Source: a virus. From it: a stretch of DNA of 25,054 nucleotides. The stretch covers positions 1 to 25,054 of IMG/VR virus record IMGVR_UViG_3300020203_000094; one strand, 5' to 3'. Of the stretch, positions 1,088 through 18,858 are shown piece by piece; position 1 is the stretch's first letter; each line of letters begins with the position of its first letter. Position numbers and translations under genes: made by a program. The notes beneath the pieces were generated by a model. The model was not told the origin of the DNA, ran no database searches, and saw nothing but the letters and a program-made list of their open reading frames with translations.

Positions 1088-1152
1088 TACTTTAGTAGGT
1101 TAGTGATAATGGGTTTTAGGTCGTCTAGGGCTTTGTTTTCTTCGTGGGTCAT
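1087..1152 (-). CDS. 21-aa micro-protein with MTHEE start
   Basis: The peptide reads MTHEENKALDDLKPIITNLLK. Two points support translation. Its ATG overlaps the upstream TGA (ATGA at 1149-1152), and its TAA overlaps the next ATG (TAATG at 1085-1089). The opening MTHEE and the DNA around it match the starts of the genes at 2241, 2585 and 3406, so it may be a truncated member of that set, now little more than the shared leader plus a short helix. It may act as a coupling peptide rather than a stable protein. Confidence 0.5.
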   Translation of the reverse strand: MTHEENKALDDLKPIITNLLK

Positions 1153-1388
1153 AATTGTTTCTTAGGTTTACAATACCAATTACTGCCACCAACTTCGTAT
1201 GCATCTAAATTATTATCAGTGCATAATTTTATAGATTCAACATTTCTAATTTGACGAGCTCTGACTTCTTCACTAGTTGGTAATATTCTTGAAATTCCGT
1301 AAATAATTAAATAAATTATTGATAAAGTCAAAAGTATCCCACATAGTATCGGCAAGGCATCTATCCATTTTTCTTTTAGTGTTTTCAT
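1149..1388 (-). CDS. Small membrane protein with extracytoplasmic Cys pair
   Basis: This 79-aa protein has a basic N-terminus (MKTLKEKWIDAL), one hydrophobic segment at about residues 12-35 (PILCGILLTLSIIYLIIYGI) and a polar C-terminal tail. The tail holds two cysteines, in LCTDNNLDAYEVGG and NWYCKPKKQL, which could form a disulfide if the tail is outside the membrane. Unknown function. Its TGA overlaps the ATG of the 21-aa micro-gene, placing it in the same coupled chain. Confidence 0.75.
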   Translation of the reverse strand: MKTLKEKWIDALPILCGILLTLSIIYLIIYGISRILPTSEEVRARQIRNVESIKLCTDNNLDAYEVGGSNWYCKPKKQL

Positions 1389-1881: not shown

Positions 1882-2241
1882 TTAATTATTTAATAATCCC
1901 CCTATAAATGTCTTGGTCTCCTCTGACTGGTCGTTGAAGTTGTCTTTGGAGAGGTTCCAGTAAGGGTGTCCTCCTACATACACTCCCTCTGGAGTTGTCG
2001 TTCCAAACTGTCCAGATTTAGCTTCTATCACTAGAGATTCGTCATCGATTGCCAACATTACCACTGATATTGTGATAGGTTTGTATCGTTTTTCAGTACA
2101 GTCAATTCCGTCATACTCTTGCTGTGAAGTTGCTCCACAATGGGAACATCTAAGATTGTTACCCTTAAAAAGATGAGAGGCAGTTTGTACTGTACTTGGC
2201 ACTAACTTTTGAATTCGTTTTATTGTTTCTTCGTGGGTCAT
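1882..2241 (-). CDS. Hypothetical protein with one CxxC, MTHEETIK start
   Basis: This 119-aa protein starts MTHEETIKRIQKLVPS, then has LRCSHCGATSQQEYDGIDC, a CxxC knuckle with a further cysteine that could bind zinc, followed by a beta-rich stretch (TISVVMLAIDDESLVIEA) and an acidic C-terminus. No known family is recognised. It belongs to the four neighbouring genes sharing the M-[T/P]-HEE start. It is separated from the upstream gene (stop at 2250) by 8 nt and from the downstream one by 6 nt, so it is surely co-transcribed. Confidence 0.75.
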   Translation of the reverse strand: MTHEETIKRIQKLVPSTVQTASHLFKGNNLRCSHCGATSQQEYDGIDCTEKRYKPITISVVMLAIDDESLVIEAKSGQFGTTTPEGVYVGGHPYWNLSKDNFNDQSEETKTFIGGLLNN

Positions 2242-2249
2242 AGTTTTAA

Positions 2250-2585
2250 TTATAGATTAGAAATTCTTTTTAATACGTCTGCCGAAGTGTGTCCATCGAA
2301 TTCTGGTGCTTTCTCTAAAGTTTCAGCGAAAAAAGTTTCATCCCACTTATCGCTTGGTAGATGATATGTTATTTGTTTATCTTTTCGTTTATCTATCCCA
2401 AGAATAAACCAGCCTTCAAAACTAGACCCGTCTGAATGTAATTTAGAACGCCAAACAGATATATCCCTCTCCCAATTTTTACACAATGCTATGTAAAGCG
2501 TAATCCTGTGCTCATACAGTTCTTTGAATGTGTGGTATCCGTCTGATGTATCTTCTGTTATTTTTATTGTTTCTTCGTGGGGCAT
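2250..2585 (-). CDS. Conserved phage protein of unknown function (HTF-ELYEHRI type)
   Basis: After the shared MPHEETIK start, the 111-aa sequence runs DGYHTFKELYEHRITLYIALCK, then WRSKLHSDGSSFEGWFILGI, KQITYHLPSDKWDE and EFDGHTSADVLKRISNL. I recognise this order as a small conserved protein seen in many unrelated phages, where it has no established function. The shared MxHEET residues appear to be an addition before the conserved core, which normally begins near DGYHTF. It is encoded 4 nt before the RNA ligase gene's stop in the leftward operon. No catalytic motif can be assigned. Confidence 0.8.
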   Translation of the reverse strand: MPHEETIKITEDTSDGYHTFKELYEHRITLYIALCKNWERDISVWRSKLHSDGSSFEGWFILGIDKRKDKQITYHLPSDKWDETFFAETLEKAPEFDGHTSADVLKRISNL

Positions 2586-2589
2586 ATAG

Positions 2590-3216
2590 TTAGGAAAAAT
2601 CCTTTACTTTAATTTTTGTAATAAGTCGTTCTCCAAAACCATTATTAAGTACAAAGGCAGGGCGAGCGACAATCCCCTCCATCTCAAAATCTCCAAATGT
2701 ACTTTTAGGTTTACTTTCCACAAAAGCAATAAGTTCTGCTAATGTAACCTCAATAACTGTTTTTACAATATCAATTCCAAATGATTCTGCTATTCCTAAA
2801 ACACTTCCGTGTCCAAGCCATTGACCGTCTATCATTACATCAAATAAGATAAATCCTTTATCTGGTCGGTAACCTCCACCTTTTTGTATTCCTGCTCCAT
2901 ATCCCTCTCCATAAAAACAAACTTTCCTATCTTTGAACTTTTCTGCAAACTTTTGTCGTTGAGGTAGTGTTGAGAACTGGTTTTGAAGTGCTGTAATTAA
3001 ATCCATAGGTAACTGGGCATTGTCTGTTTTACCATTTATCATTACATTCTCTCCATCCCACATAATACGGATATTTGTACCATCAATCTTCTCTGTTCCG
3101 TACCAAGTGAGGTCTTTCAAATACTCAAACTCTGGTCTTGACCAATCTCCTTTTACAAGTTTGTTTGTAATTTCATTTCTCTTAAATGGACTATATATTT
3201 TGTTATATTCTTTCAT
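2590..3216 (-). CDS. RNA ligase, nucleotidyltransferase domain
   Basis: This 208-aa protein carries the motifs of the covalent nucleotidyltransferase superfamily in order: motif I EKIDGTNIR with the predicted AMP-accepting Lys43, motif III FYGEGYG (101-107), motif IV EGIVAR (180-185) and motif V ITKIKVKDF (199-207). The spacing fits the compact Rnl2-like/phage RNA ligases, which join 3'-OH and 5'-phosphate RNA ends with ATP. There is little beyond the catalytic domain, so any C-terminal accessory domain is absent. Phage RNA ligases often repair tRNAs cut by host anticodon nucleases. The structured tRNA-like region 0.5-1 kb upstream in the same operon makes such a role attractive, though that is inference. 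Confidence 0.9.
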   Translation of the reverse strand: MKEYNKIYSPFKRNEITNKLVKGDWSRPEFEYLKDLTWYGTEKIDGTNIRIMWDGENVMINGKTDNAQLPMDLITALQNQFSTLPQRQKFAEKFKDRKVCFYGEGYGAGIQKGGGYRPDKGFILFDVMIDGQWLGHGSVLGIAESFGIDIVKTVIEVTLAELIAFVESKPKSTFGDFEMEGIVARPAFVLNNGFGERLITKIKVKDFS

Positions 3217-3232
3217 TTTATTTTGTTTTTAG

Positions 3233-3406
3233 TTATTTAAAATGTTTTAACACAACTAATTCTTTTATTACGGCACGATAAAGAAAACTTGGCATCCATT
3301 TTGGTTTTTTCTTTACAATTATCCAAAAATTATCTTCTATTTTCTTAGCGTGATTTTCCAGCATTTGACTTGTATACTTTTCTACTATTGTTTCTTCGTG
3401 GGGCAT
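3233..3406 (-). CDS. 57-aa conserved small phage protein, MPHEET start
   Basis: The translation starts MPHEETIVEKYTSQML and continues DNFWIIVKKKPKWMPSFLYRAVIKELVVL. The NFWxIVKxKPKWMPxFxY part is a pattern I associate with small conserved phage proteins of unknown function. The first six codons and the surrounding DNA (positions about 3390-3407) match the starts of the genes at 2241 and 2585 almost exactly. It sits between the RNA ligase gene and the 79-aa gene, 16 nt before the ligase start. The protein is very basic after residue 20. Confidence 0.65.
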   Translation of the reverse strand: MPHEETIVEKYTSQMLENHAKKIEDNFWIIVKKKPKWMPSFLYRAVIKELVVLKHFK

Positions 3407-3440
3407 AGTTTTTAGTTAGATAATAATCTGCATTTTGTGG

Positions 3441-3680
3441 CTATTCGTTGGTTATCTTTTTTAGTAAACTTTCAGCATCAGAAAACCAAGAATCACCCAA
3501 ATTATCAATTTCAAGAATCTCTTTTAATTCATAGATTTTGTCGGTGGTAATTTTTCTGACCATCAATGCTGTTTCATCTTTGTCGTAACCAATACCCCAA
3601 AATGCAATTCTAATTTCATTTATTCCTGCTATCTTGCCCAATAGATGTGCTTTTGCTTCCTCTTTTGTTTGTATTTTCAT
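3441..3680 (-). CDS. Hypothetical 79-aa protein
   Basis: It starts MKIQTKEEAKAHLLGKIAGINEIRIAFWGIGYDKDE and ends ESLLKKITNE. The pattern suggests helix-strand-helix, with no recognised family. It is the first protein gene after the structured tRNA-like region, and about 40 nt separate its start from the tRNA-like 3' end, so it is probably translated from an RNA processed or read through from there. The leader is AT-rich with no Shine-Dalgarno. Confidence 0.65.
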   Translation of the reverse strand: MKIQTKEEAKAHLLGKIAGINEIRIAFWGIGYDKDETALMVRKITTDKIYELKEILEIDNLGDSWFSDAESLLKKITNE

Positions 3681-3720
3681 ATGTTTTTAGTTAGATAATA
3701 ATTTCTGGTAAATGGACAGT

Positions 3721-3792
3721 TGGGGAACAACAGGATTCGAACCTGTTCCGTCTCCTTTCGAGAGACCTTCTACCCTTAAAATATTATTCCCC
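3721..3792 (-). tRNA. tRNA-like element on an extended stem; anticodon uncertain
   Basis: On the minus strand there is a canonical T-arm (ACAGG-TTCGAAT-CCTGT), an acceptor stem GGGAATA/TGTTCCC, and an anticodon-like hairpin GTCTC-TCGAAAG-GAGAC. Read strictly, the 7-nt loop gives GAA (Phe), but position 33 is C, not the near-invariant U. A CGA (Ser) register would restore U33 but breaks the stem. The D-arm (around AAGGGTAG) is weak, the total length of about 71-72 nt is short, and no CCA is encoded. The acceptor stem also continues outward as a helix of about 15 more pairs (3707-3721 with 3793-3808), unlike a normal tRNA. It may be a degenerate or specialised tRNA-like RNA. Confidence 0.5.
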
Positions 3793-3922
3793 CAACTATC
3801 CACTTACCTATTGAAGAAATGACTGGGATAGTGGTTATTCGGTGTAAACACTTTTATTCACCACCACCCAAGACAGGTCTCCAATACTCTGTTAAAGAAC
3901 TACTTAGCTCTGGTAAATGCTC

Positions 3923-4122
3923 TGAATCGAGGAGGTAAAGATTTGAGGACAAGGACAAACTTTTCAGTTTGGTTAGAAGCCGATTATATACCACGGCAAA
4001 CCCCTGCTACCCTATAGTCACTTTACATAGAGAAACTTTATTTTGTTTTTCACCTTACGCTGGTATTTCTCTCTGGTTGTCGCCAGTTCGTGCGTCTACC
4101 TATTCCGCCACTCCTCGATTCA
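3923..4122. repeat. 12-bp perfect inverted repeat bounding a tRNA-Leu-like 5' part
   Basis: TGAATCGAGGAG at 3923-3934 is the exact reverse complement of 4111-4122. On the minus strand the outer arm runs straight into a tRNA-Leu/Ser-like D-arm sequence (4092-4110), so the repeat could be an acceptor-like stem of a 200-nt RNA unit. Confidence 0.6.
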
Positions 4123-4179
4123 AAGTACTTACCTCCACTACTACCCTATGAGCTTACAGCACGCTGTCGGTTCCCAGAC

Positions 4180-4267
4180 ACAGTGTAAGGGTCTTAGTAC
4201 GTTGGGTGGAAACTAACCCCCCTGTTGTGCTCACTTTGCGTAGGCTTTACAGCCACCCCTACACTGT
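4180..4267. repeat. Inverted repeat overlapping the RHH stop codon
   Basis: ACAGTGTA at 4180-4187 pairs perfectly with 4260-4267, extended by GGG/CCC (4189-4191 with 4256-4258) across one mismatch. One arm contains the TAG of the RHH gene (4259-4261). A competing hairpin can form from CTTACA/TGTAAG and CTGT/ACAG between about 4153 and 4190 on the minus strand, so two exclusive folds are possible. Confidence 0.5.
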
Positions 4268-4384
4268 ACCGAGGAGTAATGTATTGATAAGTTGATCTAT
4301 TGTTACACCTCTTTTAACTGCTTCGCGCTTTACTTTCTTATGTGTTGACGCCTGCACTAACAATGCTTTGTATGTTTTTGTCAT
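4259..4384 (-). CDS. Ribbon-helix-helix-like DNA-binding peptide
   Basis: This 41-aa peptide reads MTKTYKALLVQASTHKKVKREAVKRGVTIDQLINTLLLGTV. A short strand (KALLVQAS) is followed by a basic helix (HKKVKREAVKRG), a turn and a second helix (TIDQLINTLLLG). This is the compact Arc/MetJ ribbon-helix-helix layout, with HKKxKxxAxKRGxTxDxLINxLL spacing. Such proteins bind DNA as dimers through the paired strands and often repress phage operons. It has its own promoter-like sequence (4393-4419) and is the first gene before the structured RNA stretch, so it may regulate that unit. Fold assignment is by pattern only. Confidence 0.65.
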   Translation of the reverse strand: MTKTYKALLVQASTHKKVKREAVKRGVTIDQLINTLLLGTV

Positions 4385-4392
4385 GTCTATAT

Positions 4393-4437
4393 GTTATATA
4401 ATATATATTAGATAGTCAACCTATCAACTGTGGATAA
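4393..4437 (-). promoter_or_regulatory. Candidate early promoter with DnaA-box-like element
   Basis: On the minus strand a perfect TTATCCACA (4437-4429) lies 9 bp upstream of TTGACT (-35, 4419-4414). A suboptimal 15-bp spacer and TATAAC (4398-4393) follow. The spacing is short, so this is the weakest of the four modules, but the 9-mer and its distance match those at 7001-7009 and 10218-10226. Confidence 0.4.
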
Positions 4438-4825
4438 CTACAACTGAAATATCCTTTGCTCTTGCGGAAGTGAGTGAGCGACGTTTGGATAGTTGTGACT
4501 CTAAATGAAATCGCTCAACGGAGATGATGCAGAAAAACCACGGGAACTTTATGACAATCCACGAGGGTTGTCTGACCATGCCGATATAGTCTGGATTGCC
4601 ATCGAGACCAACGACACGAATGAGCGCACCCTTGTCACCCCTGATACGCATACCATAGGCTATCTGCTGTGGCTTCACATCAGAGAAACTTAGATAGTCT
4701 TTACTTAAAGTATCCTTCAGTTCAAATGAACCCTCCATCGGATGTGCCTCCCACCACTTGCGAAAGGCAATACCAAACTTCGCTTCTTGTTGATTATTGA
4801 TTTGAGGTAAGTTGGGAAGGGTCAT
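4424..4825 (-). CDS. Putative PD-(D/E)XK-type phage nuclease
   Basis: The 133-aa protein has AKFGIAFRKWWEAHP near the N-terminus, then FELKDT (Glu35-x-Lys37), KPQQIAYGMRI (Gln53/54), PDYIGM (Asp79) and PSWIVIKF. The helix, E-x-K strand, Q-helix and following strands resemble small PD-(D/E)XK nucleases/Holliday resolvase-like proteins encoded beside phage helicases. Catalytic residues are inferred from spacing and not proven. Its first 32 nt overlap the end of the helicase gene in another frame, which suggests coupled translation and a shared role in recombination or replication-fork processing. The C-terminal codons carry a DnaA-box-like 9-mer that belongs to the next promoter. Confidence 0.5.
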   Translation of the reverse strand: MTLPNLPQINNQQEAKFGIAFRKWWEAHPMEGSFELKDTLSKDYLSFSDVKPQQIAYGMRIRGDKGALIRVVGLDGNPDYIGMVRQPSWIVIKFPWFFCIISVERFHLESQLSKRRSLTSARAKDISVVVIHS

Positions 4826-5954
4826 TTAAATATTTATGTGGATTCATATCCTTACCTAACTGTATACTATCGTATATACGCTGGTCCCAAATTCCAGCAA
4901 TCAAGTAATAATACTGCAGTGGTCGCAGATGCAATGGGTGTCGTAACCTTCCGAACATTTGAGTGTGGTCGACATTGCGATGTGACATACTCGCAAACAC
5001 CATCGCGCTAAACATCCACCCATCAAAGCCTACACCCATCTGGGCCTGTACGATAAAGTAACACTGATCACTCTCTTGTGCTTGTCTTATAGTCCCTGCT
5101 GGGTCTTTTGTTCTCCCATCGAGAACAAACACCTCACGCTCAGTTGCAAGTTCTTTTGCGAGCGCGTCAATCTGAGCTGTGTAGTGAGCCACAATGATTA
5201 TTTTCCGATACCCTAAAGCCTTAATTACAGGAAGTTTCGCGGACTGCTCCCACTGATGTTCATCAGTCCAACGGGTGAGCTCATCCACCGGCACGACACG
5301 CTTTGGTGTTTTCACTTTAATTATCTCAGTTGTAGCTGGTGGTAGGTAGTCCACACAATCCTTCAAAGAGACTATGTTCACATACTTTTCAATGTACGGC
5401 CTGATAAGGATTCTCCAATTGTCTTTCAGGAAGTACGCAGGGAAACGCAGGAACGGCATGTACTTGAGATCGTAAAACTTCGCTCGCCAATCTTTCCACG
5501 GTATTACCACTCCGATATAACAGAGCAAGGTATGGAAGGAACTCGGATCATTTCGCACAGGAGTGGCGGTGAGAAGCATCACGTCCATCTCTGGGTTTGC
5601 TTTGATGAAGTTGTACATAGCTGTTGCAAGTTGGGAGCGACTCTTTGTGAATAATGCGCTACCGAAAGTATGGGCTTCCTCAATGATGAGGGCTGTTGGT
5701 TCTTCTATTTTTTCCCATGATTTCTTAAAATTTTCCTTACTATAGACTTTTCCATGAGGGCATAGTGTCACCCAATCTTTTACAAGTTGTTTTGGACACA
5801 CAATAATAACGTTCCTGTTTCTACAGGAATGTTTAGACCAAATAGAAGCAGGTAAAGATTTTCCAACCCTCATCTCGAAACCTAAAATAGATTTTTTAAG
5901 ATTTTCGTCTACAACTCTCTGCTGATGAGGCCATAATTTCATAACAAAACCCAC
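4794..5954 (-). CDS. SNF2-like superfamily 2 DNA helicase/translocase
   Basis: This is a 386-aa SF2 helicase. WPHQQRVVDENL (Q-motif-like entry), EMRVGKS (Walker A, 27-33; a relaxed form of the SNF2 DEMGLGKT), VIIVCPKQLVKDW (motif Ia), IIEEAHTF (DEAH-like box, 92-95) and LLTATP (motif III, 127-132) make the first RecA domain. QAQMGVGFDG (303-312, motif V) and HTQMFGRLRH (330-339, motif VI with arginine finger) complete the second. ATP-driven DNA translocation in replication or recombination is the expected role. It lies between an unrecognised protein and a nuclease-like gene. Met5 (position 5942) is an alternative start that gives MKLWPHQQ, the more usual opening. Confidence 0.88.
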   Translation of the reverse strand: MGFVMKLWPHQQRVVDENLKKSILGFEMRVGKSLPASIWSKHSCRNRNVIIVCPKQLVKDWVTLCPHGKVYSKENFKKSWEKIEEPTALIIEEAHTFGSALFTKSRSQLATAMYNFIKANPEMDVMLLTATPVRNDPSSFHTLLCYIGVVIPWKDWRAKFYDLKYMPFLRFPAYFLKDNWRILIRPYIEKYVNIVSLKDCVDYLPPATTEIIKVKTPKRVVPVDELTRWTDEHQWEQSAKLPVIKALGYRKIIIVAHYTAQIDALAKELATEREVFVLDGRTKDPAGTIRQAQESDQCYFIVQAQMGVGFDGWMFSAMVFASMSHRNVDHTQMFGRLRHPLHLRPLQYYYLIAGIWDQRIYDSIQLGKDMNPHKYLNDPSQLTSNQ

Positions 5955-5981: not shown

Positions 5982-6797
5982 CTAGAAGTCTTTTATATCT
6001 TCTTCACTCATGTTTGAAATGACTGCTTCATTTCCTGATGCGAGCATAAACTTAGCATCGCTCTCTACAGTTGATTTAACAGTGGCTTGGTTTTCTGCAA
6101 TTAAATCAAATTCTCCTGAAGAGATAGGACGACCAATGTTGAATTGCATTTTACGGTAGGTATTTGTCCCGAAAGTTTCTTCTGTACTACTTAGAATTGT
6201 AAGCACTGTCGAAGGATTACACTTTCGCTTGTACGAAGAAAATTCATAACCTGCTGAAACTGATAGGTCTAGCTGGTGAAGCTCACCTTCATACATGACA
6301 TAGAGAACTGTTTTCTTGTCGAGTGATGATGATGGCTTTCCTTTTGCTGTGAGCTTTGGGTAAAGAGATTGCAAGTCTTTCTCTGTACCACGCTTGATAA
6401 CTTGTTTATCTAAGTAGAGCGGTAGCACCTGCTCTGCATTATCGTAAACAGGTGTTGAATAAAACTTATTAAGACCTGAATCAAACTTTGTGAGCTTGTA
6501 TCGGTGATAGACGATTATACCGTCTACTACCTCACCAGGGAGGTATGTGCGTGTCCATACTTTCTTACCCTCTTCATTTGTTTCACCCATGTCTTTCTCA
6601 GTGTAGAAAGTTCCTGCTGACTCGATTACTTTGATCTGCTTGTTCTTACCAGTGCCAGTCTCTTCTATAATATCCTTACTCAATAGACCAAACTTTGGTA
6701 AAATCATTCGTCCACTATCTTCGTTTACTGGATAGTTCCCGTTTAATATCGCTAACTGTTCTTCGCTCAATGGAGCGAGTTCTTGTGTTTTTTTCAT
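5982..6797 (-). CDS. Conserved phage protein of unknown function, possible ssDNA-binding role
   Basis: I start this at 6797 (MKKTQELAPLSEEQLAIL, 271 aa); an upstream in-frame extension to 6893 would run through a 16-bp hairpin and is unlikely to be translated. The protein is polar and beta-rich in the middle (VVDGIIVYHRYKLTKF, KTVLYVMYEGELHQLDLSV, RKMQFNIGRPISSGEFDLI) and ends in an acidic tail (SNMSEEDIKDF). An acidic C-terminus and its place between two nucleases and a helicase suggest an SSB-like or recombination-mediator role, but I recognise no family motif. It has its own promoter candidate and a long structured leader (6798-6956). Confidence 0.7.
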   Translation of the reverse strand: MKKTQELAPLSEEQLAILNGNYPVNEDSGRMILPKFGLLSKDIIEETGTGKNKQIKVIESAGTFYTEKDMGETNEEGKKVWTRTYLPGEVVDGIIVYHRYKLTKFDSGLNKFYSTPVYDNAEQVLPLYLDKQVIKRGTEKDLQSLYPKLTAKGKPSSSLDKKTVLYVMYEGELHQLDLSVSAGYEFSSYKRKCNPSTVLTILSSTEETFGTNTYRKMQFNIGRPISSGEFDLIAENQATVKSTVESDAKFMLASGNEAVISNMSEEDIKDF

Positions 6798-6850
6798 ATT
6801 TATTTTTAAAGTTACTTTTAAATGTGCTTTGAATGTTTCGACTCGAACGC

Positions 6851-6885
6851 TCAGTGTAGAATTCACGATGTGAACTCTACACTGA
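6851..6885 (-). promoter_or_regulatory. 16-bp leader hairpin
   Basis: CAGTGTAGAATTCAC (6852-6866) pairs with 6870-6884 over 15 positions, with one G-T wobble and a 3-nt loop; flanking T/A adds one pair. No U-run follows on either strand, so it is not a standard terminator. It lies about 55 nt upstream of the start at 6797, inside the leader of that gene. Confidence 0.6.
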
Positions 6886-6913
6886 AAGTTCAAATCTTCT
6901 CACGTGTAGCCCA

Positions 6914-6928
6914 GTGGGTGTTACCCAC
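6914..6928 (-). promoter_or_regulatory. Second leader hairpin
   Basis: GTGGGT (6914-6919) pairs with ACCCAC (6923-6928) around a 3-nt loop, about 30 nt downstream of the predicted transcription start for the 5982-6797 gene. Together with the larger hairpin it makes a structured leader of about 160 nt. Confidence 0.45.
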
Positions 6929-6962
6929 CAGACTATCGTTGAATATTTGCCTTTCGCTGTTT

Positions 6963-18750: not shown

Positions 18751-18830
18751 AAACTTCAACAACTTGGGGGAATTGATTAATGTCCCGCAGTGAAGTTTAT
18801 GTTGAAGTTTGCTTCACTCGGAACATTAAC
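18751..18830 (+). ncRNA. Long hairpin with pseudoknot-capable loop
   Basis: TTAATGTCCCG (18777-18787) pairs with 18819-18829 (one mismatch) and, after a one-base bulge, AGTGAAG (18789-18795) pairs with 18812-18818: 17 pairs in all. The 16-nt loop contains GTTGAAGTTT (18801-18810), the exact reverse complement of AAACTTCAAC at 18751-18760, so an H-type pseudoknot can form. The 3' arm overlaps by two bases the terminator that follows. No known RNA family recognised. Confidence 0.6.
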
Positions 18831-18858
18831 CAATCCTCTCAAGGGTTGGTTTTCGTTT
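18828..18858 (+). terminator. Intrinsic terminator before the scaffold gene
   Basis: AACCAATCC (18828-18836) pairs with GGGTTGGTT (18843-18851) with one G-T pair and a 6-nt loop, followed by TTCGTTTT. It ends the small-gene unit before the scaffold/capsid genes. Confidence 0.75.

Follow-up and report, generated by a model that had tools for sequence, protein, structure and literature searches.

A tRNA-Leu-derived RNA of a tailed phage belongs to a widespread and apparently uncatalogued family of phage tRNA-like RNAs

RNAs that resemble tRNAs are a known kind. tmRNA has tRNA-like acceptor and T arms with other structure replacing the anticodon arm, YrlA (RF02553) is an RNA mimicking tRNA, and phage T4 produces the species 1 and 2 RNAs, i.e. 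stable non-tRNA RNAs inside its tRNA cluster. The phage RNA family described here, itself apparently uncatalogued, has in common with bacterial tRNA-Leu a 7-bp acceptor stem, U8-G9, the D-arm GCGGAAUNGGUAGACGC and a T-stem, with the stems in the right order. In contrast to tRNA-Leu, it lacks an anticodon arm with U33 in a loop of 7 nt, an insert of 28-152 nt stands at that place, the T-loop is UGCAAAU or interrupted, and the elements are called by neither ARAGORN nor RF00005. It resembles tmRNA in the replaced anticodon arm, but differs in that the G3-U70 alanine identity is missing (G-U occurs at pair 3 in 1 of 50 sequences), the D-arm is of the Leu type and the molecule is far shorter; ARAGORN made no tmRNA call. 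The likeness to YrlA includes the placing of the tRNA-like part of one member (U2, below) at the end of a long helix, although the YrlA model gave no match over its cut-off and no TROVE protein was found in the element-bearing records (see below). The T4 RNAs are comparable in being stable non-tRNA RNAs of a phage tRNA cluster, and they are not known to have a tRNA-Leu D-arm. No Rfam match was obtained for GOLLD, ROOL or other large Rfam RNAs. The group I intron model RF00028 did not match the insert, while the same search detected an intron in L004, a close relative of the phage studied here.

The window, i.e. the whole stretch of DNA that was analysed, is an entire viral record of 25,054 nt from a tailed phage. 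Genes for an RNA ligase, a SNF2/DEAD-type helicase and a primase are found on the minus strand of its left half, and those for a terminase, a portal-size protein and a capsid protein on the plus strand. On the minus strand at 3707-4277 there are four structured units in series, U1 (4267-4180), U2 (4133-3912), U3 (3886-3810) and U4 (3808-3707). The minus (coding) strand contains no ORF of 60 aa or more between 3690 and 4290, and the 601-nt region as a whole folds with z = -5.6 on this strand. A stem scan of the whole window, on both strands and against 12 dinucleotide-preserving shuffles, gave scores of 46.5 for U4, 46.0 for U2 and 39.0 for U1, and no shuffle reached 39; the minus strand is the better folder for these stems. 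The stems of U2 and U4 are thus far beyond chance. These two units also have their outermost sequence in common (GGTAAGT...CATTTACCAGA), including an 11-nt direct repeat. The initial annotation had seen three inverted-repeat units on the minus strand; all three are found where it placed them, and U3 is a fourth.

U2 (3912-4133, minus strand) is a tRNA-Leu-like unit on a long stalk, with 22 of 23 positions paired between its arms and a fold z of -3.92. It had been described as a 12-bp perfect stem opening into a tRNA-Leu-like D-arm. The D-arm is indeed there, but the stem is longer, as the pairing of the arms indicates. The 5' strand of the stalk (4118-4133) pairs with 3927-3912 in 15 of 16 positions, and is followed by the acceptor stem, which is made of CGAGGAG at 4111-4117 and CTCCTCG at 3928-3934 and is supported by covariation. 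Inward from the acceptor there is TG, then a tRNA-Leu D-arm GCGGAATAGGTAGACGC, and next come 65 nt in which there is no canonical anticodon arm. The stretch comprising U8-G9 and the D-arm (TGGCGGAATAGGTAGACGC, 4092-4110) is part of an exact 20-mer, GTGGCGGAATAGGTAGACGC, that is also found in the contigs L030, L050, L052 and others. The insert that replaces the anticodon and variable arms (4027-4091) contains a stem, termed Pv, of AGAGAAAT (4072-4065) with GTTTCTCT (4036-4029), followed by AT; a crossing stem of CTGG (4086-4083) with CCAG (4063-4060) is possible. The T-stem pairs GTAAAG (4021-4026) with CTTTAC (3940-3935). Its loop is interrupted by a second insert of 74 nt (3946-4019) that starts with GACTATA, and what remains of the T-loop is U54 at 4020 and CAAAU at 3945-3941, i.e. 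the loop reads T, the 74-nt insert, CAAAT. Position 73 is A. Neither ARAGORN nor RF00005 called U2 or the corresponding elements of L030, L052 and L054. U2 derives from a tRNA without being one.

The same architecture recurs with other sequences. A blastn comparison of the array region with relatives of the window phage found the 20-mer in the relative G005 (L030), where the acceptor is GAAGCGG/CCGCTTC, the T-stem is GCGAGG/CCTCGC, a further stalk of 8 bp is present, and the T-loop reads T[GACTGCA...]CAAAT. A pattern scan of viral contigs revealed the same kind of T-loop interruption in L050 and L052. The T-loop insert starts with GACTATA in these two contigs as in the window, and with GACTGCA in L030. 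Long stalks were found in four of the four members of this subtype (25 contiguous pairs in L052, 13 plus 6 in L050), so the opened T-loop and the long stalk occur together. In the alignment of the four sequences, 100% of the acceptor, D and T cells are paired and 12 double changes are seen. The covariation in homologues that the initial annotation had called for is therefore present for U2, and its suggestion of a viral tRNA-like RNA was right for this unit. L051 and L057, which score 31 bits, are candidate members. Three other candidates were rejected: L035, which has short words in common with the window region by eye, showed no significant similarity to it and no match to the covariance model described below, and L049 and L056 were chance pattern matches.

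The family extends well beyond this subtype. Known phages were searched with the elements of L052, L054, L055, SPP1 and phi3T, and many records had a match to the D-arm and T-arm in unannotated gaps; many cyanophage matches and some others were annotated tRNA-Leu genes and were set aside. The members that were fetched come from the Listeria phages B025 and B054, the Bacillus phages SPP1, phi3T, Grass and 010DV005, the Enterococcus phages EFDG1 and VEsP-1, Lactiplantibacillus H1-Guo, Brochothrix BtpYZU01, Weissella WC29P3, Lactobacillus Lenus, Leuconostoc phiLM33_01, Latilactobacillus TMW 1.1386 P1, Hujiaoplasma zrk29-2 and Paenibacillus Pd_22F. Herelleviridae of Bacillus, Listeria and Enterococcus are included. 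The elements are located in the tRNA clusters of Herelleviridae, in the gap between a late regulator and the terminase in several siphophages, including Brochothrix and Lactobacillus phages, and between genes 9 and 11 in SPP1 (X89721, 3413-3538). None of the cultured-phage records that were opened has an RNA annotation of the element, no Rfam family (YrlA included) matches it, and no description of this RNA family was found in open-licence papers. U2 thus belongs to a widespread phage RNA family that is apparently uncatalogued. In SPP1, a short tRNA-like piece (ACGGACGGCTGG...GCGGGTTCAATTCCCGGAGTCCGT; L061, about 3112-3160) with an acceptor, a T-arm and little else lies directly after the Leu-like element.

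Scanning viral contigs for the pattern GTGGYGGAATNGGTARACGCN{45,75}GTGCAAATC gave at least 120 that contain the wider form, in which the T-loop is uninterrupted (UGCAAAU in the members whose sequence was read). The letters of the D-arm and T-loop are largely fixed by this pattern and their invariance alone proves little, while those of the acceptor and T-stem are free except for the innermost base on one side. The free positions A17, C11 and G22 are nearly invariant. Among 89 nonredundant elements there are 66 different acceptor 7-mers. In an alignment of 50 sequences, pairing is kept in 99.0% of the cells belonging to the three stems (acceptor, D and T), and double changes number 207; the covariation score is 0.673 as compared to 0.167 in shuffled alignments and at most 0.127 with slid partners, and RNAalifold unaided predicted the same 16 pairs. 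Beyond the 7 bp of the acceptor, the pairing of ordinary members is at the level of chance (on average 5.2 of 13 positions vs 4.9 expected). A73 is found in 46 of 81 members and missing in 35 (A at position -1: 31 of 81), and CCA is encoded in almost none.

A covariance model, R1, was built from the 50 sequences. Of 22 records searched with it, 19 have at least one copy, and every one of the 16 known phages that were searched whole is among them. The E-values were 2.3e-12 for L030, 3.4e-11 for L050 and 1.1e-9 for L052, and a divergent copy was found in Listeria phage P100. In the window, R1 matches at 4117 with 31 bits, mostly via the D-arm; it aligns only the 5' part of U2 and misplaces its 3' end because of the T-loop insert, so the assignment of U2 is based on its homologues and not on R1 alone. 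Three contigs, L117, L173 and L185, have three to five R1 matches each, and one family member in L173 has an ordinary T-loop, TTCGAGT.

The insert in place of the codon-reading half is 28-152 nt long in the family and mostly 44-73 nt, the latter range being a consequence of the search pattern. Its 3' end is AT in 79 of 89 members. A Pv stem whose 3' strand ends directly before this AT has on average 5.6 pairs vs 3.76 in shuffles, and U2 conforms to the arrangement, its Pv stem being followed by AT and the T-stem. Many members have, close to the D-arm, a stretch able to base-pair with the loop of Pv (e.g. CCUC/GAGG in SPP1, UAUUG/CAAUA in L052). With Pv fixed, this crossing stem is modestly above shuffled linkers (Wilcoxon p 0.002; 9 of 78 members individually at p 0.05). 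A pseudoknot is therefore likely in some members and possible across the family. Inspection of the inserts revealed no anticodon arm with a stem of 5 bp, a loop of 7 nt and U33; in L070, the shortest member with an insert of 28 nt, the loop has 6 nt and lacks U33.

These observations suggest that many phages make a tRNA mimic with the top half of a leucine tRNA and a variable fold in place of the codon-reading half. U2 keeps the acceptor stem, D-arm and T-stem of tRNA-Leu, a variable and structured insert takes the place of its anticodon and variable arms, and its family is held together by covariation across many unrelated phages. That U2 is a phage-encoded tRNA mimic is very probable. The full reading we prefer, i.e. 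that U2 imitates tRNA-Leu and acts in trans, that LeuRS is the leading candidate target and that U4 is probably a weak or decaying tRNA-Phe, is put forward with somewhat less than even confidence. According to this reading, the RNA would be freed from the transcript as a small RNA, in ordinary members by RNase P and RNase Z and in the window phage perhaps through cleavage of the long stalk by an enzyme of the RNase III type; the stalk would either block ordinary RNase P/Z maturation or invite such a cut. Acting in trans, it would then occupy a host factor that recognises the elbow and acceptor of tRNAs and leaves the anticodon unread. Without an anticodon, the RNA can only be recognised by factors relying on the elbow and acceptor, and the varied locations of the elements fit action in trans better than a cis element.

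Among the synthetases, LeuRS, SerRS and AlaRS are those that do not need the anticodon, and bacterial LeuRS requires A73. LeuRS is the leading candidate because it dispenses with the anticodon and because the Leu-type D-arm is kept. Nevertheless, the presence of A73 in only 46 of 81 members speaks against it, the interrupted T-loop of U2 should weaken the elbow, and we regard LeuRS as a doubtful target. A tentative generalisation is that the elements form a new and widespread class of phage noncoding RNA, with the upper half of tRNA-Leu and a pseudoknot for the codon-reading half, that inhibits or otherwise affects a host tRNA-binding factor in trans, and that the long stalks and opened T-loop seen here mark a subtype. 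If this is true, phages from many families retain an RNA that resembles a tRNA but cannot decode, and they must profit from it in another way. The family would be an addition at the level of RNA catalogues, as it is missing from Rfam, and it may account for stretches that lack annotation in the tRNA clusters and late operons of phages. The conserved member in SPP1, a model phage of B. subtilis, allows immediate tests of how the RNA is expressed and processed, what it binds and what its deletion does.

Among the alternatives, a cis-acting processing element is the one that survives best, even if we consider it unlikely. Here the tRNA-like fold would be cut by RNase P/Z and split a polycistronic phage mRNA, like the tRNA punctuation of mitochondria, and the long stalk would be a substrate for an RNase III-type enzyme. 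The elements do lie in intergenic gaps inside transcription units (between SPP1 genes 9 and 11; upstream of the terminase), phages related to the window phage have many long intergenic stems, and the hairpin at 18763-18843 of the window has counterparts of different sequence in L002 and L027. However, RNase P/Z need neither an invariant Leu-type D-arm nor a structured insert, and the positions vary widely between phages, tRNA clusters included.

It is improbable that the elements are phage Y RNAs, i.e. tRNA mimics to which a Ro60 (Rsr/TROVE) protein binds that in turn guides a nuclease to structured RNA. Work cited in PMC12282133 reports that bacterial Y RNAs mimic tRNAs. The same paper deals with CKA15, a Listeria phage resembling P100, in which putative noncoding loci upstream of an Rsr-like gene yield transcripts in very high abundance and two more unannotated regions near tRNA genes are highly transcribed, and it suggests Y RNAs for the highly transcribed noncoding RNAs near the tRNA genes, with the Rsr-like protein nearby. 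P100, which is related to CKA15, has its divergent family member in a tRNA cluster (126402-126543). On the other hand, the YrlA model of Rfam had no match over its cut-off in 5 records, and a TROVE domain was found in 0 of 49 element-bearing phage records. The presumed P100 counterpart of CKA15_055, the gene called Rsr-like in PMC12282133, matches DUF7788/DUF2828 and not TROVE. This gene, gp165 (506 aa; L199, 3571-5091), is probably the counterpart by size and position.

U4 (3707-3808, minus strand) is a tRNA-Phe-like unit whose helix prolongs the acceptor stem to 21 contiguous pairs in all, and its fold (z = -6.06) was equalled by none of 200 shuffles. The tRNA-like element on a long helix described in the initial annotation is thus real, as are its normal T-arm, its C33 instead of U33 and its poor D-arm, which is a weak A-U stem. 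The annotation had also held that this was no normal tRNA gene and that a call of a standard tRNA with a normal leader, and no support for the long stems, would tell against its view; ARAGORN does call a tRNA-Phe(GAA) at 3721-3792, as a cloverleaf with a GAA anticodon, and RF00005 matches with 34 bits (gathering score 29). Most probably, U4 represents a tRNA-Phe gene of this array that is weak or in decay and has a paired leader and trailer.

The low score, C33 and weak D-arm of U4, together with the failure of tRNA tools to find U2, are what one would expect if the elements were relics, i.e. degraded tRNA genes with random inserts. Compensatory changes that keep the acceptor and T stems in many phages, and a common architecture of the insert, are unexpected for relics, and we consider this reading very improbable. 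The degraded tRNA array envisaged earlier is therefore contradicted for U2 and possible for U4. Functional tRNA-Leu genes whose anticodon region is split by an intron would account for the Leu-type acceptor, D-arm and T-stem, but no Rfam intron matched, the inserts of the family differ in sequence and length and no recurring splice-site-like sequence was seen in them, even the insert of L070 leaves a 6-nt loop without U33, and U2 has a second insert inside the T-loop, so that an intron is hardly credible. The decoy for host anticodon nucleases proposed in the initial annotation, for which the known use of phage tRNAs against such nucleases and the nearby RNA ligase gene may be cited, is most improbable and unsupported, as the variable insert replaces the anticodon arm across the family, the loop that such nucleases target is absent or unrecognisable, and the ligase was not found in the relatives searched.

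The remaining two units are U1 and U3. U1 (4180-4267, minus strand) is a stem-loop with 12 of 13 pairs whose 5' arm runs across the stop codon (TAG, 4259-4261) of a 41-aa ORF, as had been proposed, and it folds weakly on its own (z = -1.84). The ORF (MTKTYKALLVQ..., 4259-4384, minus strand) has a weak HicB-like match below the cut-off. Promoter-like sites at 4391-4427 (minus strand) face the ORF and the array, and their number is not above chance. U3 (3810-3886, minus strand) is a long imperfect hairpin, or rod (z = -2.66).

The window is probably only part of a genome, as the records of its relatives, which were recovered via the capsid protein, are up to 44 kb long. No close relative (L002-L013) covers 2190-5790 of the window, and no relatives were found for its helicase and ligase genes, for which reason the array region is not comparable in close relatives. 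As a whole, the array region of about 600 nt had no homologue in known phages by blastn. The host search for the window phage gave a single genomic match, a 3-kb MAG contig. The RNA ligase gene (PF09414; 2590-3216, minus strand) lies downstream of the array and is linked to it by position only.

Further structures and repeats were noted in the window and its relatives. A common sequence, which codes for a similar N-terminus (M-P/T-HEET), occurs at four gene starts of the window (1132-1158, 2221-2247, 2565-2591 and 3386-3412), and the copy at 3386-3412 is probably truncated. Locally, the window folds most strongly at 6841-6950 (minus strand; 201-nt z -7.1), where two hairpins lie directly upstream of the gene 5982-6893, the true start of which is probably near 6798. 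The hairpin at 18763-18843, upstream of the capsid region, is long (stem score 42.5), and the hairpins of different sequence in L002 and L027 are at apparently the same place. Many rods of at least 20 pairs with branched heads occur in L030, L031, L035, L037, L040 and L027 (relatives G005, G007, G009 and G003). Several of them are intergenic, with energies down to -118 kcal/mol (L030, 7613-7810), and R1 matches none except the L030 element at 4844-4948. The capsid gene of the very close relatives L004, L005 and L006 is interrupted, at the point matching 19950/19952 of the window, by an insertion of about 820 nt that the window gene does not have. It is a group I intron (RF00028, 26.7 bits, below the gathering score; E 1.7e-4), and the ORF within it resembles an HNH endonuclease.
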